DNA of 64,000 nucleotides from Tissierellia bacterium (GCA_012735215.1 JAAYHX010000021.1:1-64000), one strand, 5' to 3'; numbered from the stretch's first letter, positions 4,304 through 20,826 are shown. A program made the numbers and translations. The notes: generated from the letters alone by a model not told the origin.

Positions 4304-4312
4304 GTGGATGTT

Positions 4313-5929
4313 ATGGATATGAAGGTCCAAAATTTGATTGAGCAATTTGAGGGATTTAAATTATTAGCTGGTGATGGTGGATTAGGAAGAAGGGTAAGTA
4401 CTGTAACAGTTATGGATGCTCCCGATATATATGATTGGATGAAAGGAGGAGAATTTTTAATTACTACGGCCTACATAATGAAGGATAACCCGCTGGAACT
4501 AAAGGACTTGATAATTAGATTAAACAAGAATGGAGCATCAGCTTTAGGTATTAAAATAGGAAGATTTATTGAAAAACTACCTGATGTTGTGAAGGATACT
4601 GCAGATAGGTTAAACTTCCCTATTATACATATACCAATTAACTATGCATTTAGCGATGTAATACATCCAGCCCTATCAAGAATAGTAAATGCACAAGCCA
4701 AAAAATTGATGATGTCAGAAAGAATTCATAAATCCTTTACTCAGCTAGTTATTGAAGGTAGGGGAACTGACCATATAGTTGAGACTTTATACGGAATATT
4801 AAATAGAAATGTTGCTTTTAAAGACTTAGTATTTAATAAGATTTATGTAGTAAGTAAGTCTAATAAGTTTAAGGGAGATATACAAAATTTAAGCCTAAAT
4901 AGTATATTGGATAAATACTTTAGTTATCCTGTTCAAATTGGTAGTTCCATTTATGGATACATAATAGTGGATGAAAATAAAGATACTAACACTTTAGAGG
5001 ATTTAGATGAAATAACTATAGAACATGCTAGTACAGTTCTTAAACTGAATATACAGAAAGAGATTTCCAATCATCAAATTGAACAAAAATATAGGGATGA
5101 GTTTATTCAAGATCTGTTATTGAATAATATTAGGACTATAGAAGAAGTAAACAACAGGGCAGCCTTATATGGTTGGAAAATGGATAAAGGTCTTGTTTGT
5201 CTAATAGTAGATATAGACGATTATAAGGTAAGATTCTTATCCTTAGAAAAGAGCAAGGGATTGGAAGAAGAGAGGGATACTGTATTTAGGCAGATTACAG
5301 CAAAGATGAAAAAAAGCTTTTACAATTGCTACTATACCACCTATAGTGATAGTATAGTATATCTAATTGAACCAGATGTAAGTCCTATGAAGGATTTTTT
5401 TAATAAGCTTAAAATGGTCTCAGAGGAAATAAGAAAAGAAATAAGGAAAACTAGCCAATTTACAGCTACTATTGGAATAGGTAGCTATAAGGAATCGGTA
5501 ATAAATATCTATACTAGTTTCATAGAAGCTCAAAAAGCAGTGAGGATAGGTAGAACTATCTACGGTGGAAACAATACCCATGTTTATGATGATTTGGGAG
5601 TTTATAGAATGCTTTTTGATATCTCCCAAGGGGAAGAAGCAAATTGCTTTTGCAGTCAGTACTTGGAGAAATTAATAGATTATGATATAAAGAATAATTG
5701 CAACTATATGGGAACTCTAAAACATTTAGTTAGAAATGACTGGAACCTAAAGAAAACAGCTGAGGACTTATTTATTCATTATAATACTATGAAATATAGA
5801 TTTAGCAAGATTATTGAAATTATTAACCTGGATTTAAACAATAGAGAAAACAAGTTTATGATAGAACTTTGCTTAAAACTAATGGATATAAGCAAACAAT
5901 ACTCTTTGTACATGAAGACTAATATATAG
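4313..5929 (+). CDS. PucR family transcriptional regulator
   Basis: The N-terminal PucR ligand-sensing domain (about 1-125) has the characteristic GGLGRRVSTVTVMDAPDIYDWMKGGE stretch. A GGDEF-like CdaR middle region (about 260-400) follows, then a C-terminal PucR helix-turn-helix (KHLVRNDWNLKKTAEDLFIHYNTMKYRF pattern). PucR/CdaR/AdeR-type activators control catabolism of purines, sugar acids or amino acids. ATG at 4313 is preferred over GTG at 4304 because the ribosome site TAGGGGTGA sits only three bases from the GTG. It is transcribed towards the amidohydrolase operon and separated from it by a terminator, so it is the likely local activator of that operon. Confidence 0.88.
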   Translation: MDMKVQNLIEQFEGFKLLAGDGGLGRRVSTVTVMDAPDIYDWMKGGEFLITTAYIMKDNPLELKDLIIRLNKNGASALGIKIGRFIEKLPDVVKDTADRLNFPIIHIPINYAFSDVIHPALSRIVNAQAKKLMMSERIHKSFTQLVIEGRGTDHIVETLYGILNRNVAFKDLVFNKIYVVSKSNKFKGDIQNLSLNSILDKYFSYPVQIGSSIYGYIIVDENKDTNTLEDLDEITIEHASTVLKLNIQKEISNHQIEQKYRDEFIQDLLLNNIRTIEEVNNRAALYGWKMDKGLVCLIVDIDDYKVRFLSLEKSKGLEEERDTVFRQITAKMKKSFYNCYYTTYSDSIVYLIEPDVSPMKDFFNKLKMVSEEIRKEIRKTSQFTATIGIGSYKESVINIYTSFIEAQKAVRIGRTIYGGNNTHVYDDLGVYRMLFDISQGEEANCFCSQYLEKLIDYDIKNNCNYMGTLKHLVRNDWNLKKTAEDLFIHYNTMKYRFSKIIEIINLDLNNRENKFMIELCLKLMDISKQYSLYMKTNI

Positions 5930-5940
5930 TCTTCTTTTTT
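5914..5940 (+). terminator. Rho-independent terminator overlapping the regulator's stop codon
   Basis: An 8-bp stem (5914-5921 with 5927-5934), a 5-base loop and six T residues. The stop codon lies within the stem. It separates the regulator from the downstream operon. Confidence 0.85.
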
Positions 5941-6019
5941 GTATCTTAAGCACAATGACTAACATTTATACTAATTATAAAATGCAATTAAGTAGAAAAT
6001 TATCAAAGGGGGTTCCTGT

Positions 6020-7372
6020 ATGTATAGTACAAAGGTAGGCATGCTTAAAGATGTTTCGGCTTCTGTAAAAGAGGGGCAATTATCAGACCCTGATATGGCA
6101 CTAGATAAGACGGGGAGAATCATATTAAAAAACGGATTCGTAGTAGACCCAAAGAATGGGGTAGAAGAAGTATTGGATATCGCCATATTGGGAGATGAAA
6201 TAGCAGAGATAGGAAAAGATATCTATGTTGAAAAGGGCGATATGGTAATTAACTGTGAAGGCTTATTAGTTGTACCAGGCTTGTTAGATATGCACCTTCA
6301 TCTAGGAGACTTATTTGAAGTAAGTACTGATCCAATTTATGGTGCAGCAGCTGATGGTGTAACCATGGCCCTTTCTCCTGGAGCAGGCAACACCTTTATG
6401 GCGCCATCATTACTAGGGGCAGAAGTAGATAGAGGAGTACCAATAAATATAGGCTTATACCAAGGAGCAGCCAGTGTTTTATCTACAATGCTATCTGTTG
6501 AAGAGTTGATTAAGCTGTATAAAGGTGAATTAGAGGAAGAAATAGCTTCATCTAAGATGTCAAGAAATGCAATCACAAACACTACAGCACCCTTAGTAGT
6601 AGGTATAAAGGATCACATGGGGCATTTTATAATGTCGGATGAAAACATAGACAAGATATTTGAAATTACTTCTCAAGCTAAGTTAATCTATATGACCCAT
6701 ACTCAAGACCCTGATCATGCTTTAAGATTAGTTGAATTATCCAAAGGTAGACCAATTCATTTGGGTCATGCAACAGCTGCTGGATGTGGTACCCATAAGG
6801 AAGCAGTGGAGTCAATGAAGGTCATAATAGATTTGTGTAAAAAGGAAAACGTAACAGGTGAGTTTGTAACCACCATGTTGAGAGAAGGTGGTGGAAGCAG
6901 AGAAGGGCTTATTATGCCTAAGAAATCACAAGAGTTAGCTTATGAAGCATTGGAGAAGGGGATAGTAGATGTGTTGATATCCGATGGTCAAAATGATGCC
7001 ACTATGAAAGGTTTTGGAGATACAAGGGATAATATACCAGTCATATTAGAATTAGCAGAGATGGGAGTATTGAGTTTATCCAATTCAATAGCTACTATGA
7101 CTTCTAATCCAGCAAGACTTATAGCTGAAAGAACTGGTAATGATTGGTGGATAGAGAAAGTTGGCCATTTAGGAAAAGGTGCATTAGCAAATGTAACCGT
7201 AATAAATAGTAATGTAAAATCTGCTGCTTATACCATAGTAAATGGAGAGATTGTAGGATTTGAAAGTAGAGCAGTAAGACGAGGCAGCGGAGCAGGAGGA
7301 TTTGTAAGTAAGTTTGGTATGGTTAAGAGAATAGGAGTAGGGGATTTGGTAATGTTTTCATACAGAAGATAA
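6020..7372 (+). CDS. amidohydrolase family protein (dihydroorotase/hydantoinase-like)
   Basis: This 450-residue metal-dependent amidohydrolase begins with a beta-sandwich segment (IILKNGFVVDPKNG, about 34-47) and then a TIM barrel. Visible metal ligands are H92-x-H94 (DMHLHLGD), a candidate carboxylated lysine K197 (VVGIKDH), H227 (YMTHTQD), H247 or H250 (PIHLGH), and D322 (ISDGQND). This is a complete binuclear set, so activity is expected. The first 33 residues (a KDVSASVKEG-containing extension) precede the usual start of the fold. ATG at 6020 follows AAAGGGGG. It is first in an operon with an M20 peptidase and a membrane protein. A cyclic amide or N-acyl compound is the likely substrate class; the exact substrate is unknown. 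Confidence 0.85.
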   Translation: MYSTKVGMLKDVSASVKEGQLSDPDMALDKTGRIILKNGFVVDPKNGVEEVLDIAILGDEIAEIGKDIYVEKGDMVINCEGLLVVPGLLDMHLHLGDLFEVSTDPIYGAAADGVTMALSPGAGNTFMAPSLLGAEVDRGVPINIGLYQGAASVLSTMLSVEELIKLYKGELEEEIASSKMSRNAITNTTAPLVVGIKDHMGHFIMSDENIDKIFEITSQAKLIYMTHTQDPDHALRLVELSKGRPIHLGHATAAGCGTHKEAVESMKVIIDLCKKENVTGEFVTTMLREGGGSREGLIMPKKSQELAYEALEKGIVDVLISDGQNDATMKGFGDTRDNIPVILELAEMGVLSLSNSIATMTSNPARLIAERTGNDWWIEKVGHLGKGALANVTVINSNVKSAAYTIVNGEIVGFESRAVRRGSGAGGFVSKFGMVKRIGVGDLVMFSYRR

Positions 7373-7399
7373 TAACTGATTTAGAAGGAGGAGTTTAAG

Positions 7400-8530
7400 T
7401 TGAAGGAAAGAACGGAGAATATTTTAAAAAAGTTAGTCAATATAAACACAACCAATCCACCAGGTAATGAAATGGATGTAATAAACACTATATTAGGCTT
7501 TTTCCCAGAGGATATAGCATACGAAATAGTAGATCATGGAGATAATAGAGGGTCCTTAATAATAGAGATTAAGGGAGAAGATGAAGAAAAAATAGGCTTC
7601 ATAGGCCATTTAGATACGGTGCCAGTACCTGATGAATCCAATTGGGATTATCCACCATTTGATGGAGTAATTAAGGATGGCTATATGTATGGAAGAGGTA
7701 CTGCTGATATGAAGGGTGGAGTTACTGCTATGATATTGACAGCCTTATATTTCGTAGAAAACAACATAACTCCTCCTCATACCCTTAAATTCGTTTTTAC
7801 TGCTGATGAAGAATCGGGAGGTATAGGGATACAGACTTTAAGGGATAAAGGTCTTTTAAAGGATATATCCAAAGTATTTATTCCAGAACCTACCGATGAG
7901 CAGATTGGTATATGTGAGAAAGGAGCTTTTTGGCTAAATATCAATGTAAAGGGTAGGGCTTCCCATGGTTCTAGACCAGACTTGGGGATCAATGCAATAG
8001 AAAAGCTATATGAATATATATGTAGGCTGAAAGCAACTATGGATTTAGAAAAAGAGCACTATTTATTGAAAAAGTCAAGCTTTGCTATTACTTTGATAAG
8101 CGGAGGAGTAAAGACCAATATAATACCAGAAGATGCAAAGGCATCTGTGGATATAAGGACAATACCTGGAATTGACCATGATGAAATATTAAAGAATGCC
8201 TATGAGATAAGCAAAATAATTGAGGAAGAAAATCCAGGAATTTCTATTGAAATATTAGTAGAAAACAATAGACCTCCATTAACCATAGATGAAGGAAACG
8301 GTTTTATAAAGGAAATAATTGAAACTTACGAAAGACTTTCCTATCCAGTGAAATTTAAGGGTCTAAACTTCTACACGGATGCATCCCAGCTTATACCATT
8401 TCATAATATACCCTTTGTAATATTAGGACCTGGTGAGGAGAATATGTGCCATCAGAAGAATGAAAGGACAAGTATAGAGTCCATTACGAGAATGGCAAAG
8501 CTCTATATTTCTTATATTATTAACTATTAG
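7400..8530 (+). CDS. M20 family metallopeptidase (ArgE/DapE-like)
   Basis: The 376-residue di-zinc amidase/peptidase has a catalytic domain interrupted by a dimerisation domain. Visible are the first zinc motif GHLDTVP (about 69-75), the bridging region YGRGTADMKGG, the catalytic glutamates in TADEESGG, and the lid domain starting near 'GRASHGSRPDLG'. Family members remove N-acyl groups or hydrolyse carbamoyl/ureido amides. TTG at 7400 is supported by AGAAGGAGGAG six bases upstream; no ATG fits. It lies 27 bases after the amidohydrolase and 15 bases before the membrane protein. This suggests a two-step route in which the amidohydrolase opens a ring and this enzyme releases the amine or amino acid. 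Confidence 0.88.
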   Translation: MKERTENILKKLVNINTTNPPGNEMDVINTILGFFPEDIAYEIVDHGDNRGSLIIEIKGEDEEKIGFIGHLDTVPVPDESNWDYPPFDGVIKDGYMYGRGTADMKGGVTAMILTALYFVENNITPPHTLKFVFTADEESGGIGIQTLRDKGLLKDISKVFIPEPTDEQIGICEKGAFWLNINVKGRASHGSRPDLGINAIEKLYEYICRLKATMDLEKEHYLLKKSSFAITLISGGVKTNIIPEDAKASVDIRTIPGIDHDEILKNAYEISKIIEEENPGISIEILVENNRPPLTIDEGNGFIKEIIETYERLSYPVKFKGLNFYTDASQLIPFHNIPFVILGPGEENMCHQKNERTSIESITRMAKLYISYIINY

Positions 8531-8545
8531 AAGGGAAGGGTTAAT

Positions 8546-9505
8546 ATGGTAGATACCAAATCCAAAGTAAAAAAGTATTATAAAGGTTCAGTAACGGGGC
8601 TTGTATTATCTGTTGGAATTGGTTTTGCTTTATATTTTGCTTTGAATAGTATCAATATTGCTAGCAATTGGTTAGATTACAATGCTATAGTAGCTAATGC
8701 AGGTAATAATCCAATATATAAGCTTATATGGTATGTTATGAACTTTACAGAAGCCCAATTCTATGCAGGATTCTTTGCTTCCTTAGGAATAATTATTGGA
8801 GGGTTTATAGCTTGGAGGTTGGATGTTAAAAATTCAAGATTTAGAGGATTCGATGTATCTTATGGTTCCAATCTATGGCCTTGGGTATTAGCTTCTCAAT
8901 TGCTATCCTTGTTTATTGCAATATTCGTTTTAAACTATACTAGACTTTTTAATACAGGGGAATATACTTGGCTGCCAACCTTTATCACAGTAGTAGGTGC
9001 TCCACCAGCTATCATGCTGCTGTATGGACCTAACATAAAAGCATTACTTACTAGCTCCATACTAGGAGGAACAATGGGTTTTCCAGTAGCCATGTGGATT
9101 AGTAATCACATTATACCCGTACTGGATGTGCCAGGAGTAGTATCCAATGTATTTACAATGGCCATTACTGGATTATTAATTTGTGCTATATGTAAGGCAT
9201 TACCATGGATGGAAAAGATGCCATCTAAACCTCTCAATAGAGAGGGGAAATCACAAGAAGAAGTTCTAAAGGAAATGGAAAGCCCACAATGGTTTGTAAG
9301 GAGAGTTTTAGCAGACTTTTCAGAAGCTCAATTTTATGGGAACGAAATAGCAGGTATATTGGGAGGAATAATAGGACCTCCTTTAGCAGAGTATGTTTGC
9401 GATAAGCTTCCAGAAGGATATCATCCTACCATAGGGAATGTTACTTCCATGGGTCTTACAACCATAGTAGTATCTGTCATTATCAAGGTGTTGCCTTGGT
9501 TTTAG
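8546..9505 (+). CDS. uncharacterised multi-pass membrane protein with internal duplication
   Basis: This 319-residue protein has about eight predicted membrane segments and belongs to no family I can name. An internal repeat is visible. FTEAQFY (67-73), followed by a glycine-rich membrane helix, recurs as FSEAQFY (258-264). NVFTMAITGLLICAICKALPW (201-221, abridged pattern N-V-x2-M-x-[14]-LPW) recurs as residues 298-318 at the very C terminus. The arrangement suggests a transporter-like protein built from a duplicated unit, with the conserved Glu-Ala-Gln in or near the membrane as candidate substrate contacts. ATG at 8546 follows GAAGGG. As the last gene of the operon it probably imports the substrate of the two hydrolases; that is inference. 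Confidence 0.8.
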   Translation: MVDTKSKVKKYYKGSVTGLVLSVGIGFALYFALNSINIASNWLDYNAIVANAGNNPIYKLIWYVMNFTEAQFYAGFFASLGIIIGGFIAWRLDVKNSRFRGFDVSYGSNLWPWVLASQLLSLFIAIFVLNYTRLFNTGEYTWLPTFITVVGAPPAIMLLYGPNIKALLTSSILGGTMGFPVAMWISNHIIPVLDVPGVVSNVFTMAITGLLICAICKALPWMEKMPSKPLNREGKSQEEVLKEMESPQWFVRRVLADFSEAQFYGNEIAGILGGIIGPPLAEYVCDKLPEGYHPTIGNVTSMGLTTIVVSVIIKVLPWF

Positions 9506-9556: not shown

Positions 9557-9590
9557 TGAAAAGGGCTGCCCCTTAGGGCAGCCCTTTTCA
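9557..9590. terminator. bidirectional terminator between convergent genes
   Basis: A perfect 15-bp stem (9557-9571 with 9576-9590) with a CTTA loop and A/T-rich stem ends lies between the convergent membrane protein gene and the bacteriohemerythrin gene. Confidence 0.85.
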
Positions 9591-16554: not shown

Positions 16555-18234
16555 ATGGCATCTATAACTCACTTTAAAAGGGACGAGATAAACAAGTCAA
16601 ACCCTATCTTTTCTCAAATACGTACAACTATTGAAACCGTATTCTATGGAAACAATGTGGTAAATATTAATTCCTTAAAGGAAGCTTATAAACTTGCTGA
16701 AAGCTCTCCAGGAACTATAGTTACTGATATGCCAGTACATAGACCTGAAGAGATTGGATTGGATAAGGATGCTAAGATTCTTTTGTTTAACGATGGTGCA
16801 GTAACTGGTAGGTGTGCAGCAGCCAGAAGAATTATAGGAGAAGAAGGAGTAGATACATCATATTACGCAGAAACCATAAGAGATGCTGCTAATAAGACTA
16901 GGTACAGAAAAATGTATCATGCTCAGGCCTATGTTGGTTTACATGAGGACTTTATGGTTAAAGCCCATCTATTAATACCAGAAGGTCATGAAAACATATT
17001 ATACAATTGGCTATTGAACTTCCAATATTTGAATGAAACATATGTAAGCATGTATGAAAAGTCTAGAACCTTCAAAAGTGAAGGAGATATCTATATATTC
17101 TCAGATCCAGATTGGGAAAGCGAGGCTCACCCACTAGGACTGGCTATATTTGATCCTGAACACAACTGTGCTTGCATCCTTGGCATGAAGTACTTTGGTG
17201 AACATAAGAAGGGAACTCTGACATTGGCTTGGGGAATTGCCAATAGAAATGGATTTGCTTCCTGCCATGGAGGACTAAAAAGATACAATTTAGATGGTAA
17301 TCACAAATATACGGTAAGTGTATTTGGTCTTTCAGGCTCAGGAAAATCAACAATTACCCATGAAAAACATGATGGCAAATACGACATTTCCATACTACAT
17401 GATGATGCCTATGTTATTTCAACGGAAGATGGATCGTCTGTTGCATTAGAACCATCCTATTTTGATAAGACTCAAGACTATCCTCTTAATTCAGAGGCCA
17501 ACAAGTATCTCATCACTGTGCAAAACTGTGGAGCTACTCTGGATGAAGACGGAAAATGCGTAATAGTAACGGAGGATTTAAGAAATGGCAATGGTAGGGC
17601 AATAAAGTCAAGATTATGGACTGACAATAGAGTTAATAAGATCGATGAACCAGTAGATGCCATTGTATGGCTTATGAAAGACCCAGCTATACCTCCTGTG
17701 TTGAAGATAAAGGACCCAGTGCTAGCTGCAGTTATGGGAGCAACCCTAGCTACTAAGAGAACTACTGCTGAAAGACTGGCCAAGGGTGTTGATAAGGATG
17801 CATTAGTAATCGAACCTTATGCAAATCCATTTAGAACATATCCATTAGGAGATGACTATAGTAAATTTAAGAAATTGTTTGAAGAGAGAAAAGTGGATTG
17901 CTATATATTCAATACTGGTTTCTATTTGGATAAGAAAGTTCCAAAGGGAGCAACCTTAAGTGCTCTAGAACTTATAGTAGAAGGAAAAGCTGAGTTCAAA
18001 CCTTGGGGCAGTTTTACAGATATTGAATACCTTCCAATAGAAGGATTCTATAGAGATATGGATGAAGAGTATAAGGATATGTTAAATAATAGCATTGACT
18101 ATAGGATAAATTTCTTGGAAAATGTGAAGAAAGCTAAAGGTGGAAGAGATAAGCTTCCAGAAGAAGCTTTAGAAGCTTTATATAGGATGAAAGATGAGTT
18201 AAATAATGAAGTTGAAGAAAGGGTAGCTTTATAA
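16555..18234 (+). CDS. pckA: phosphoenolpyruvate carboxykinase (ATP-type family)
   Basis: The enzyme interconverts oxaloacetate + ATP and phosphoenolpyruvate + CO2 + ADP in the cytosol. The 559-residue protein has the P-loop GLSGSGKST (about 259-267), a lysine- and glycine-rich GMKYFGEHKKG metal/substrate loop (about 218-228), and the LHDDAY Walker B-like segment after it. The motifs differ slightly from E. coli PckA (GLSGTGKTT, Y-A-G-E), matching a divergent clostridial branch rather than the 540-residue enterobacterial type. ATG 16555 follows AGGAGG. In an amino-acid fermenter this may run towards oxaloacetate with energy gain, or serve gluconeogenesis; the sequence does not decide. Confidence 0.9.
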   Translation: MASITHFKRDEINKSNPIFSQIRTTIETVFYGNNVVNINSLKEAYKLAESSPGTIVTDMPVHRPEEIGLDKDAKILLFNDGAVTGRCAAARRIIGEEGVDTSYYAETIRDAANKTRYRKMYHAQAYVGLHEDFMVKAHLLIPEGHENILYNWLLNFQYLNETYVSMYEKSRTFKSEGDIYIFSDPDWESEAHPLGLAIFDPEHNCACILGMKYFGEHKKGTLTLAWGIANRNGFASCHGGLKRYNLDGNHKYTVSVFGLSGSGKSTITHEKHDGKYDISILHDDAYVISTEDGSSVALEPSYFDKTQDYPLNSEANKYLITVQNCGATLDEDGKCVIVTEDLRNGNGRAIKSRLWTDNRVNKIDEPVDAIVWLMKDPAIPPVLKIKDPVLAAVMGATLATKRTTAERLAKGVDKDALVIEPYANPFRTYPLGDDYSKFKKLFEERKVDCYIFNTGFYLDKKVPKGATLSALELIVEGKAEFKPWGSFTDIEYLPIEGFYRDMDEEYKDMLNNSIDYRINFLENVKKAKGGRDKLPEEALEALYRMKDELNNEVEERVAL

Positions 18235-19249: not shown

Positions 19250-20146
19250 TTAGAGGTATTCAAAAATCCAATCAATAAGCTCTATACATAGATCGGCTGT
19301 GACATCGTCTCTATCTAAATGAGGATTTAGCTCTACAAAGTCCATAGATTTAACTAATTTTGTTTCAATAAAGGATTTTAAAAGTGTCTTTGTTTCTTCT
19401 ATAGTAAAACCTCCATCAACGGGAGTTCCTGTTCCTGGTACTATCTTTTTGTCCAACATGTCTATATCAAAGCTTAAATGAATGGCATCTACCTTTGAGG
19501 CCTTTATCTTTGCTACTATGTCATCTATGACAGCCTCTAACCCTCGTTCATTGATTTTTTCCATAGTAATTAAATTTAGATTTATTCGGTCAGCTAGTTC
19601 AATTTCCCCTTGGTCCAAATCCCTAGCTCCCACTATAAAGGTATTTTCAGGCTTTACCTTTGGTCCATTAAAGTATATATTGACTAGGGAAGGTTCTCCA
19701 TAGCCTAAAGCTGCCCCTAGGGGCATTCCATGAGGATTCCCAGATGGGCTTGTATCATCTGTATTAATATCACCATGGGCGTCAATCCAGATTACTGCTA
19801 GGTTATTGAAGTATTTGCTGGAGCCAGAAATGCTGCCTAAACCTAGGGAATGATCTCCTCCAAAAATAAATGGGAAGCTATCAGCCTTTAAGGAGCTATA
19901 TACTAGGTGGGCAAGATTGGTATTCATTTCAACTATTTCCTTTAGATATTTTATCTTTTTATGATGAGCATATTTATTATTTTCCAACACATTGGGTATG
20001 TAAAGGTTTCCTAAATCAAACACATTTTTACCATGTTTTCTTACTACATCTATGATGCCTTTTTGTCTCAACTTTTCAGGTCCATATTGGACCCCTTCTC
20101 TATCAGCGCCGTATTTAACTGGTACTCCGATTAAACTAACATTCAT
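19250..20146 (-). CDS. rocF: arginase family protein (probable arginase)
   Basis: Arginase hydrolyses L-arginine to ornithine and urea with a binuclear Mn centre. Visible ligands are GGDHS (His/Asp; about 95-99), DAHGDIN (about 122-128) and SFDIDMLD (about 225-232). GTGTPVDGG and the C-terminal 'SMDFVELNPHLDRDD' (arginase Glu in VELNP) follow. The length of 298 is normal. It starts MNVSLIGVPVKYGADREGVQYGPEKLR, as in Bacillus RocF. The ATG follows AAGGAGGTC. No urease genes are nearby, so urea is probably excreted. Agmatinase or formimidoglutamase are less likely given the N terminus. Confidence 0.9.
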   Translation of the reverse strand: MNVSLIGVPVKYGADREGVQYGPEKLRQKGIIDVVRKHGKNVFDLGNLYIPNVLENNKYAHHKKIKYLKEIVEMNTNLAHLVYSSLKADSFPFIFGGDHSLGLGSISGSSKYFNNLAVIWIDAHGDINTDDTSPSGNPHGMPLGAALGYGEPSLVNIYFNGPKVKPENTFIVGARDLDQGEIELADRINLNLITMEKINERGLEAVIDDIVAKIKASKVDAIHLSFDIDMLDKKIVPGTGTPVDGGFTIEETKTLLKSFIETKLVKSMDFVELNPHLDRDDVTADLCIELIDWIFEYL

Positions 20147-20310
20147 AGGAAAGACCTCCTTATAATGTTGTAGAAAGACTCATGATTATATTATACACTA
20201 ATCTATGTAATGTCTAACAATCTTTATTTTTATTACAAGGGCAAAAATGTTTAAATAAAAGTTAAATATATGATACTATTATTGTGAGGAAAAAATAGGG
20301 GGTGTTTAAT

Positions 20311-20826
20311 GTGAAGGCATTACTTGTAATAGATATGCTCAATGACTTCATCCTCAAGGATGGTGCCTTGTACTCAGGAAGTAGAGCTGAGGAAATAGTA
20401 GATTTTATAAATGATAGGATAAAAGAGTTCAGGCAAAATATCTACCCTATAATATTCATATGTGATAATCACGAAGAGGACGATAGCGAATTTAACATGT
20501 TTCCACCCCATTGCATAGCTGGGGAGGAAGGAAGCAATATAGTTGATAGTATTGATTATAGACAAGGGGACAAGATCATTAAAAAGAGAAGATACAGTGG
20601 CTTCTTTGGAACAGAGTTAGACCTATATTTAAGGGAGAAAAAGGTGGAGGAATTATATCTGGTAGGGGTATGTACTAATATTTGTGTACTCTATACGGCA
20701 GCTGATGCAAGAAATATTGGCTATACTGTTAATATATACGAGGCAGGGGTTGCTTCTTTTGATGAGGAAGCCCATAGATTTGCTTTAAAGGAAGCAAAGA
20801 ATACATTAGGATGTAATATCATATAA
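20311..20826 (+). CDS. isochorismatase-family cysteine hydrolase
   Basis: The 171-residue hydrolase has the catalytic triad pattern: Asp in VIDMLNDF (about 7-10), Lys in IIKKRRYSGFFGT (about 90) and the nucleophile Cys in GVCTNICVLYTA (about 121-125). Nicotinamidases and N-carbamoylsarcosine-type amidases belong here, and the 'DGALY' and 'HCIAGEEGS' segments fit nicotinamidase-like members. GTG 20311 is preferred to GTG 20302 because AGGGGGTG lies seven bases upstream of it. It is followed after 10 bases by RNase H. Confidence 0.85.
   Translation: MKALLVIDMLNDFILKDGALYSGSRAEEIVDFINDRIKEFRQNIYPIIFICDNHEEDDSEFNMFPPHCIAGEEGSNIVDSIDYRQGDKIIKKRRYSGFFGTELDLYLREKKVEELYLVGVCTNICVLYTAADARNIGYTVNIYEAGVASFDEEAHRFALKEAKNTLGCNII

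Follow-up and report, generated by a model that had tools for sequence, protein, structure and literature searches.

Introduction

The closest described counterparts of the locus analysed here are found in anaerobes. In the reductive uric acid cluster, the amidohydrolases SsnA, HyuA and UacY are accompanied by YgeY, an M20 enzyme (PMC12507026), and the pairing of amidohydrolase with M20 enzyme recurs in our locus. A second counterpart is the creatinine/N-methylhydantoin route of Tissierella, which uses a hydantoinase-like amidohydrolase and a second amidase (PMC5364220). The locus itself is a cassette of four genes, encoding a PucR-type regulator, an amidohydrolase, an M20 metallo-deacylase and a membrane protein (MEM). 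It lies in a 64,000-nucleotide stretch of DNA from a Tissierellia bacterium (GCA_012735215.1, JAAYHX010000021.1:1-64000), hereafter the window, and coordinates are counted from the first letter of this stretch.

Like the Tissierella route, the cassette belongs to an anaerobe and combines an amidohydrolase with a second amide-cutting enzyme. However, the second enzyme of that route, N-carbamoylsarcosine amidase, is not known to be an M20 protein. The uric acid cluster has two or three amidohydrolases, whereas the cassette has one and its M20 enzyme scores below the YgeY cut-off. Furthermore, the flanks of the cassette, as annotated, are without XdhD, YgfK/UacX, YgeX and YgeW. For MEM, the nearest parallels are the AmiS/UreI and UT urea/amide transporters, which likewise present a membrane protein gene beside genes for small-amide hydrolases. 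The UT transporters are internally duplicated, as MEM is, but neither group has a detectable sequence relation to MEM.

Results

A four-gene cassette is conserved across genomes

The pucR, amidohydrolase, M20 and MEM genes are arranged in line, all on the forward strand. We recovered the same reading frames as the initial annotation and the same gaps, 27 bases between the amidohydrolase and M20 genes and 15 bases between the M20 and MEM genes. The amidohydrolase was searched for in ~650 genomes drawn from the order and the phylum; these sets are part of the database, so the counts are not frequencies. Within the order there were 11 full-length matches, including the window, and one fragment of 57% identity that lies at the edge of a contig. 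The phylum supplied two further matches, at 70-74% identity. No other match with an E value below 1e-20 was present in the searched genomes and, hence, the family is sharply bounded. Profile searches with MEM added two cassettes (genomes G769 and G768).

All 15 genomes with a full amidohydrolase gene carry adjacent PucR, M20 and MEM genes. Because these genomes represent many genera, and the flanking genes differ between groups, the association of the four genes is far beyond chance. Compared with their window counterparts, the amidohydrolases are 67-94% identical, the M20 enzymes 36-89%, the MEM proteins 39-92% and the regulators found in the same place 31-88%. Judged by sequence, the amidohydrolase is the core, best-conserved member of the cassette. 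The gene order is PucR-MEM-amidohydrolase-M20 in G359. In G020, a 43%-identical version of the M20 gene comes last, after MEM; an M20 gene is thus retained despite a divergent sequence or a changed position. The M20 gene of G485 is at L048:10017-11201. In G243 (L041:6757-11997) the PucR, M20 and MEM frames are shortened, which suggests frameshifts or sequence errors. Some cassettes adjoin peptidase genes, for LD-carboxypeptidase S66 (G014, G017) or oligopeptidase F (G076, G243, G244). Adjacent S66, M3 and PTS genes were ruled out as extra parts, since they occur in few cassettes only.

The initial annotation proposed an undescribed, regulator-linked catabolic system, and named two findings that would speak against it: loss of the linkage in relatives, or placement of the enzymes in a well-described pathway clade. 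The linkage held in the 15 genomes and no such placement was found. This part of the proposal is supported, as a conserved, regulator-linked cassette for which we found no match to any described system. A search of the open-access literature found no description of the cassette, though this is no proof that none exists.

The amidohydrolase lies outside named families

The amidohydrolase gene (6020..7372, +) encodes 450 amino acids. The protein belongs to the amidohydrolase superfamily by Pfam (PF01979, 40.2 bits against a cut-off of 25; also PF07969), with the HxH, K, H, H and D residues present. The full metal set previously recognised consists of H92, H94, K197, H227, H250 and D322, and is invariant in 15 members. 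Judged from its position along the protein, K197 would be the carboxylated lysine. The N-terminal extension, earlier put at about 33 residues, is real; ~32 residues (1-32) are conserved in every homologue and, thus, do not result from a mis-called start.

The dihydroorotase, hydantoinase and allantoinase branch shares with this enzyme the superfamily, the HxH start and segments that align at both termini. Conversely, the cassette enzyme is below every family cut-off, has other residues after HxH and carries the additional N-terminal segment. The top NCBIfam scores were 68 bits for PRK09237 (cut-off 371) and 66 bits for PRK09061 (cut-off 340). Scores against NCBIfam ring hydrolases also fell short, with 62.7 against 701 for dihydroorotase, 34.8 against 357.9 for allantoinase and 34 against 393 for D-hydantoinase. 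Matches to dihydroorotase in the PDB covered mainly residues 20-170 and a short C-terminal stretch, and a plasmid search with the amidohydrolase returned nothing but one weak dihydroorotase match. An AlphaFold model, built from only three near-identical alignment rows, had a mean pLDDT of 33 and was too poor for use. On these comparisons, the enzyme is within the superfamily yet outside all named families tested, and is placed in its own subfamily without assigned function. The earlier view of a likely ring-opening reaction on a cyclic amide is stronger than the evidence allows. Ring-hydrolase models are far below cut-off, the PDB matches are mainly N-terminal, and the superfamily hydrolyses linear N-acyl bonds too.

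The M20 enzyme is of the ArgE/DapE type

The M20 gene (7400..8530, +) has a TTG start and encodes 376 amino acids with Peptidase_M20 and M20_dimer domains in Pfam. It clears the ArgE/DapE deacylase model TIGR01910 (255.9 bits against a cut-off of 217.6) and scores 98 bits with TIGR01887, placing it nearer to deacylases than to dipeptidases. Residues H70, D103, E137, E138, E163 and H351, predicted to bind metal or act in catalysis, are invariant in 14 members. The protein aligns end to end with PDB entry 7uoi, a ‘succinyl-diaminopimelate desuccinylase’ (176 bits), all metal residues being kept. It differs from the ArgE/DapE deacylases in falling below the curated cut-offs of the narrower DapE and ArgE models listed, and in a context that is probably catabolic rather than one of lysine or arginine synthesis.

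The initial annotation leaned towards a hydantoin or ureido pathway, such as an M20 enzyme often completes. The hydantoinase-linked carbamoylase model is absent from the best 25 of 60 NCBIfam M20 hits (all at least 91 bits). The ArgE/DapE placement, together with this absence, does not bear out the proposed role, and profile scores rule out a hydantoinase-carbamoylase pairing as the leading reading. The YgeY equivalog cut-off was also missed (173 against 321 bits), and there were no uricolytic neighbours among the annotated flanking genes. Since YgeY is itself of the ArgE/DapE type and handles a ureido group, the placement is still compatible with ureido substrates.

MEM is a duplicated membrane protein found beside C-N hydrolases

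Full-length relatives of MEM have ~400 residues in two homologous halves. The halves align at 32% identity (hhalign probability 99.8, E value 3.7e-30), so MEM is the product of a tandem duplication. Pfam had no match for any of 14 members. An NCBIfam scan of two full-length relatives gave nothing meaningful, the window MEM was also without an NCBIfam match, and a PDB profile search with the MEM alignment found no match.

More distant MEM relatives are found beside several types of hydrolase gene. Adenine-deaminase-like amidohydrolases adjoin them in four genomes, G076, G244, G067 and G179, which make up one clade (support 100/100). An Amidohydro_3 gene and a MEM relative overlap by 4 bases in G720. 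Other neighbours are genes for an acetamidase/formamidase (G320) and an isochorismatase-type hydrolase (G148), while a C45 acyltransferase-family (AAT) gene precedes the MEM relative in G387 and G699, of one genus (L081:1231-3487 and L090:5921-8389). In G242, a MEM relative at 74% identity adjoins a urease operon. The simplest reading is that MEM is a transporter, probably for amide-type nitrogen compounds.

Two further arrangements were seen among the relatives. In G179 (L085:9118-12981) genes for a MEM relative, a cyclase-family (PF04199) protein and an adenine-deaminase-like protein stand in a row, perhaps as a second type of cassette. In G244 (L043:10833-14525) an ABC exporter gene separates a full MEM gene from a second copy of the MEM 3' end; this looks like the outcome of an insertion that duplicated that end.

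The MEM gene of the window carries an apparent internal deletion

The membrane protein gene of the initial annotation is present as a forward frame (8546..9505), but an internal deletion had been missed. The window protein has 319 residues, compared with ~400 in relatives, so that about a fifth of the length is lost. Alignment with the G014 DNA showed an in-frame gap of 243 bp, set exactly between two copies of the 9-bp sequence AATAGCAGG. In relatives the two copies stand 243 bp from each other; the window retains a single AATAGCAGG, at the deletion junction (9343..9361, +), and the frame stays open. The residues lost are 269-349 of the G014 protein, and 3 of the 4 hydrophobic segments of the second half are removed.

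There is no second MEM copy in the genome of the window. Synonymous and non-synonymous changes did not reveal relaxed selection on the shortened gene (p = 0.12 and 0.37), which leaves a recent loss, a tolerated loss or an assembly error as explanations. The transport step is probably impaired in this genome, or the assembly is wrong, perhaps through collapse.

The regulator gene is probably a separate transcription unit

The pucR gene (4304..5929, +) starts at GTG 4304 or ATG 4313. Its product is a PucR family member, with the PucR N-terminal domain (PF07905, 1.4e-34), a GGDEF-like domain (PF17853, GGDEF_2) and HTH_30 (PF13556), all above gathering scores. The gene was reported to lie directly upstream of the others in the same direction; the position and domains agree, but pucR probably forms a unit of its own with its own terminator. 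A hairpin with a T-tract (5914..5940, +) overlaps the pucR stop codon. The hairpin (5914-5934; dG −9.2, z −3.5) is kept in the aligned spacers of 11 of 11 genomes. This region is also coding, so conservation by itself does not prove a terminator, and matches in the terminator scan were no commoner in the region than in shuffled sequences. Because pucR has this conserved hairpin and T-tract, the operon proper would consist of the three downstream genes, and the amidohydrolase, M20 and MEM genes are probably transcribed together.

The gap between pucR and the amidohydrolase gene is 85-92 bp in the 11 aligned genomes. Alignment and a consensus scan mark the spacer (5941..6019, +) as the probable promoter/operator of the operon. 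It contains a promoter-like sequence, ATGACT-17-TAAAAT (5955-5983), which is a consensus match only; such matches in the region number 39, against 27.9 (sd 6.4) in shuffles, a modest excess. Downstream of MEM, the strong terminator noted before corresponds to a hairpin at 9557..9588 (dG −31.3 kcal/mol, z −6.8). This is common to the MEM gene and a convergent hemerythrin gene, and is probably a bidirectional terminator.

Elsewhere in the window, arginase-family and isochorismatase-family genes lie close to each other on opposite strands (19250-20826). A 559-residue protein encoded at 16555-18234 partially matches ATP-dependent phosphoenolpyruvate carboxykinase (residues 98-457, 62 bits).

Discussion

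We consider it reasonably probable that the locus is a PucR-controlled, horizontally distributed catabolic cassette, providing uptake, an amidohydrolase and a deacylase for an amide-type nitrogen compound in anaerobes. The observed basis is the gene content and its linkage, the intact predicted catalytic residues, the M20 subfamily, the duplication in MEM and the linkage of MEM relatives to other C-N hydrolase genes. MEM would take up the compound. The amidohydrolase, as a binuclear metal enzyme, would then cut a first amide bond, perhaps one within a ring. A second, acyl-amino bond may be cut by the ArgE/DapE-type M20 enzyme, releasing a free amino acid to be fermented or used as a nitrogen source. 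PucR could sense the substrate or an intermediate and activate the promoter before the amidohydrolase gene. With low confidence, a cyclic dipeptide or N-acyl amino acid is our guess at the substrate, ranked slightly above hydantoins.

Several observations weigh against this interpretation. By sequence, MEM could not be connected with a known transporter family in Pfam, NCBIfam or the PDB, and an AlphaFold model of the full-length protein, from three near-identical rows, was unusable (mean pLDDT 39). The urease link is confined to one genome, across a 290-bp gap, and the G242 MEM branches within the clade of the cassettes and may therefore be a remnant. In G540, the nearest same-strand upstream neighbour of MEM analysed is a choline-kinase-like gene rather than one for a hydrolase, with an M20 gene one further. 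Finally, the MEM gene of the window is damaged, and the cassette in this genome may be decaying.

Among more specific alternatives, cyclic dipeptide use is unlikely. Here, the amidohydrolase would open a six-membered cyclic diamide (diketopiperazine) and the M20 enzyme would split the dipeptide. This chemistry would suit both enzyme superfamilies, and peptidase genes adjoin some cassettes. However, such genes do not recur consistently in the 15 cassettes, the M20 enzyme is more deacylase- than dipeptidase-like, and our literature search gave no described homologue. Salvage of linear N-acyl or N-formyl amino acids, or of cell-wall peptides, is an equally doubtful prospect. The amidohydrolase would be D-aminoacylase-like and the M20 enzyme would act on the other stereoisomer or on a second acyl group. 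Consistent with this, the deacylase-like PRK09061 is the second-best NCBIfam match, D-aminoacylases are among the PDB matches, and the M20 enzyme is above the ArgE/DapE cut-off. Conversely, the amidohydrolase scores are far below cut-off and its matches mostly N-terminal. Moreover, K197 is invariant, which suggests a binuclear site with a carboxylated lysine, in contrast to the D-aminoacylases.

A hydantoin/ureide pathway is improbable. In this scheme a ring resembling hydantoin or dihydropyrimidine would be opened by the amidohydrolase, leaving an N-carbamoyl group for the M20 enzyme to remove. PucR regulators are reportedly tied to purine catabolism (Schultz 2001, as cited in PMC12507026), and the amidohydrolase is related at superfamily level to dihydroorotase, allantoinase and hydantoinase. 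In addition, YgeY acts on the ureido amino acid albizziin (PMC12507026). Set against this are the low scores with all specific ring-hydrolase models and with YgeY, the lack of reductive uric acid partners among annotated flanking genes, and the histidine motif, which is DMHLHLGDLF where the aligned dihydroorotase has DIHVHLRDPG. It is similarly improbable that MEM is not the importer but a product exporter, or a channel for small amides or ammonia, with uptake by another system: AmiS/UreI channels and MEM relatives alike adjoin ammonia-releasing hydrolases (for MEM, e.g. urease and formamidase), and the cassette enzymes are intact although the window MEM is shortened, but the tandemly duplicated protein of ~400 residues is larger than AmiS/UreI and has no Pfam match.

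Cassettes of regulator, transporter and hydrolase are of a known kind. What is unfamiliar in this one is the amidohydrolase subfamily and the MEM family, for which there is no curated model. We tentatively suggest, at somewhat less than even confidence, that MEM represents an undescribed family of duplicated transporters that supply neighbouring C-N hydrolases with amide and N-heterocyclic nitrogen compounds. In the cassette, MEM would serve an amidohydrolase of new function and an M20 deacylase, acting on a substrate without a known anaerobic degradation route. The sharp boundary of the amidohydrolase family (at least 67% identity in full-length members, and one 57% fragment) makes the cassette easily recognised and tested. 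As MEM relatives recur beside different C-N hydrolases, one solved substrate would aid the annotation of several unrelated loci.

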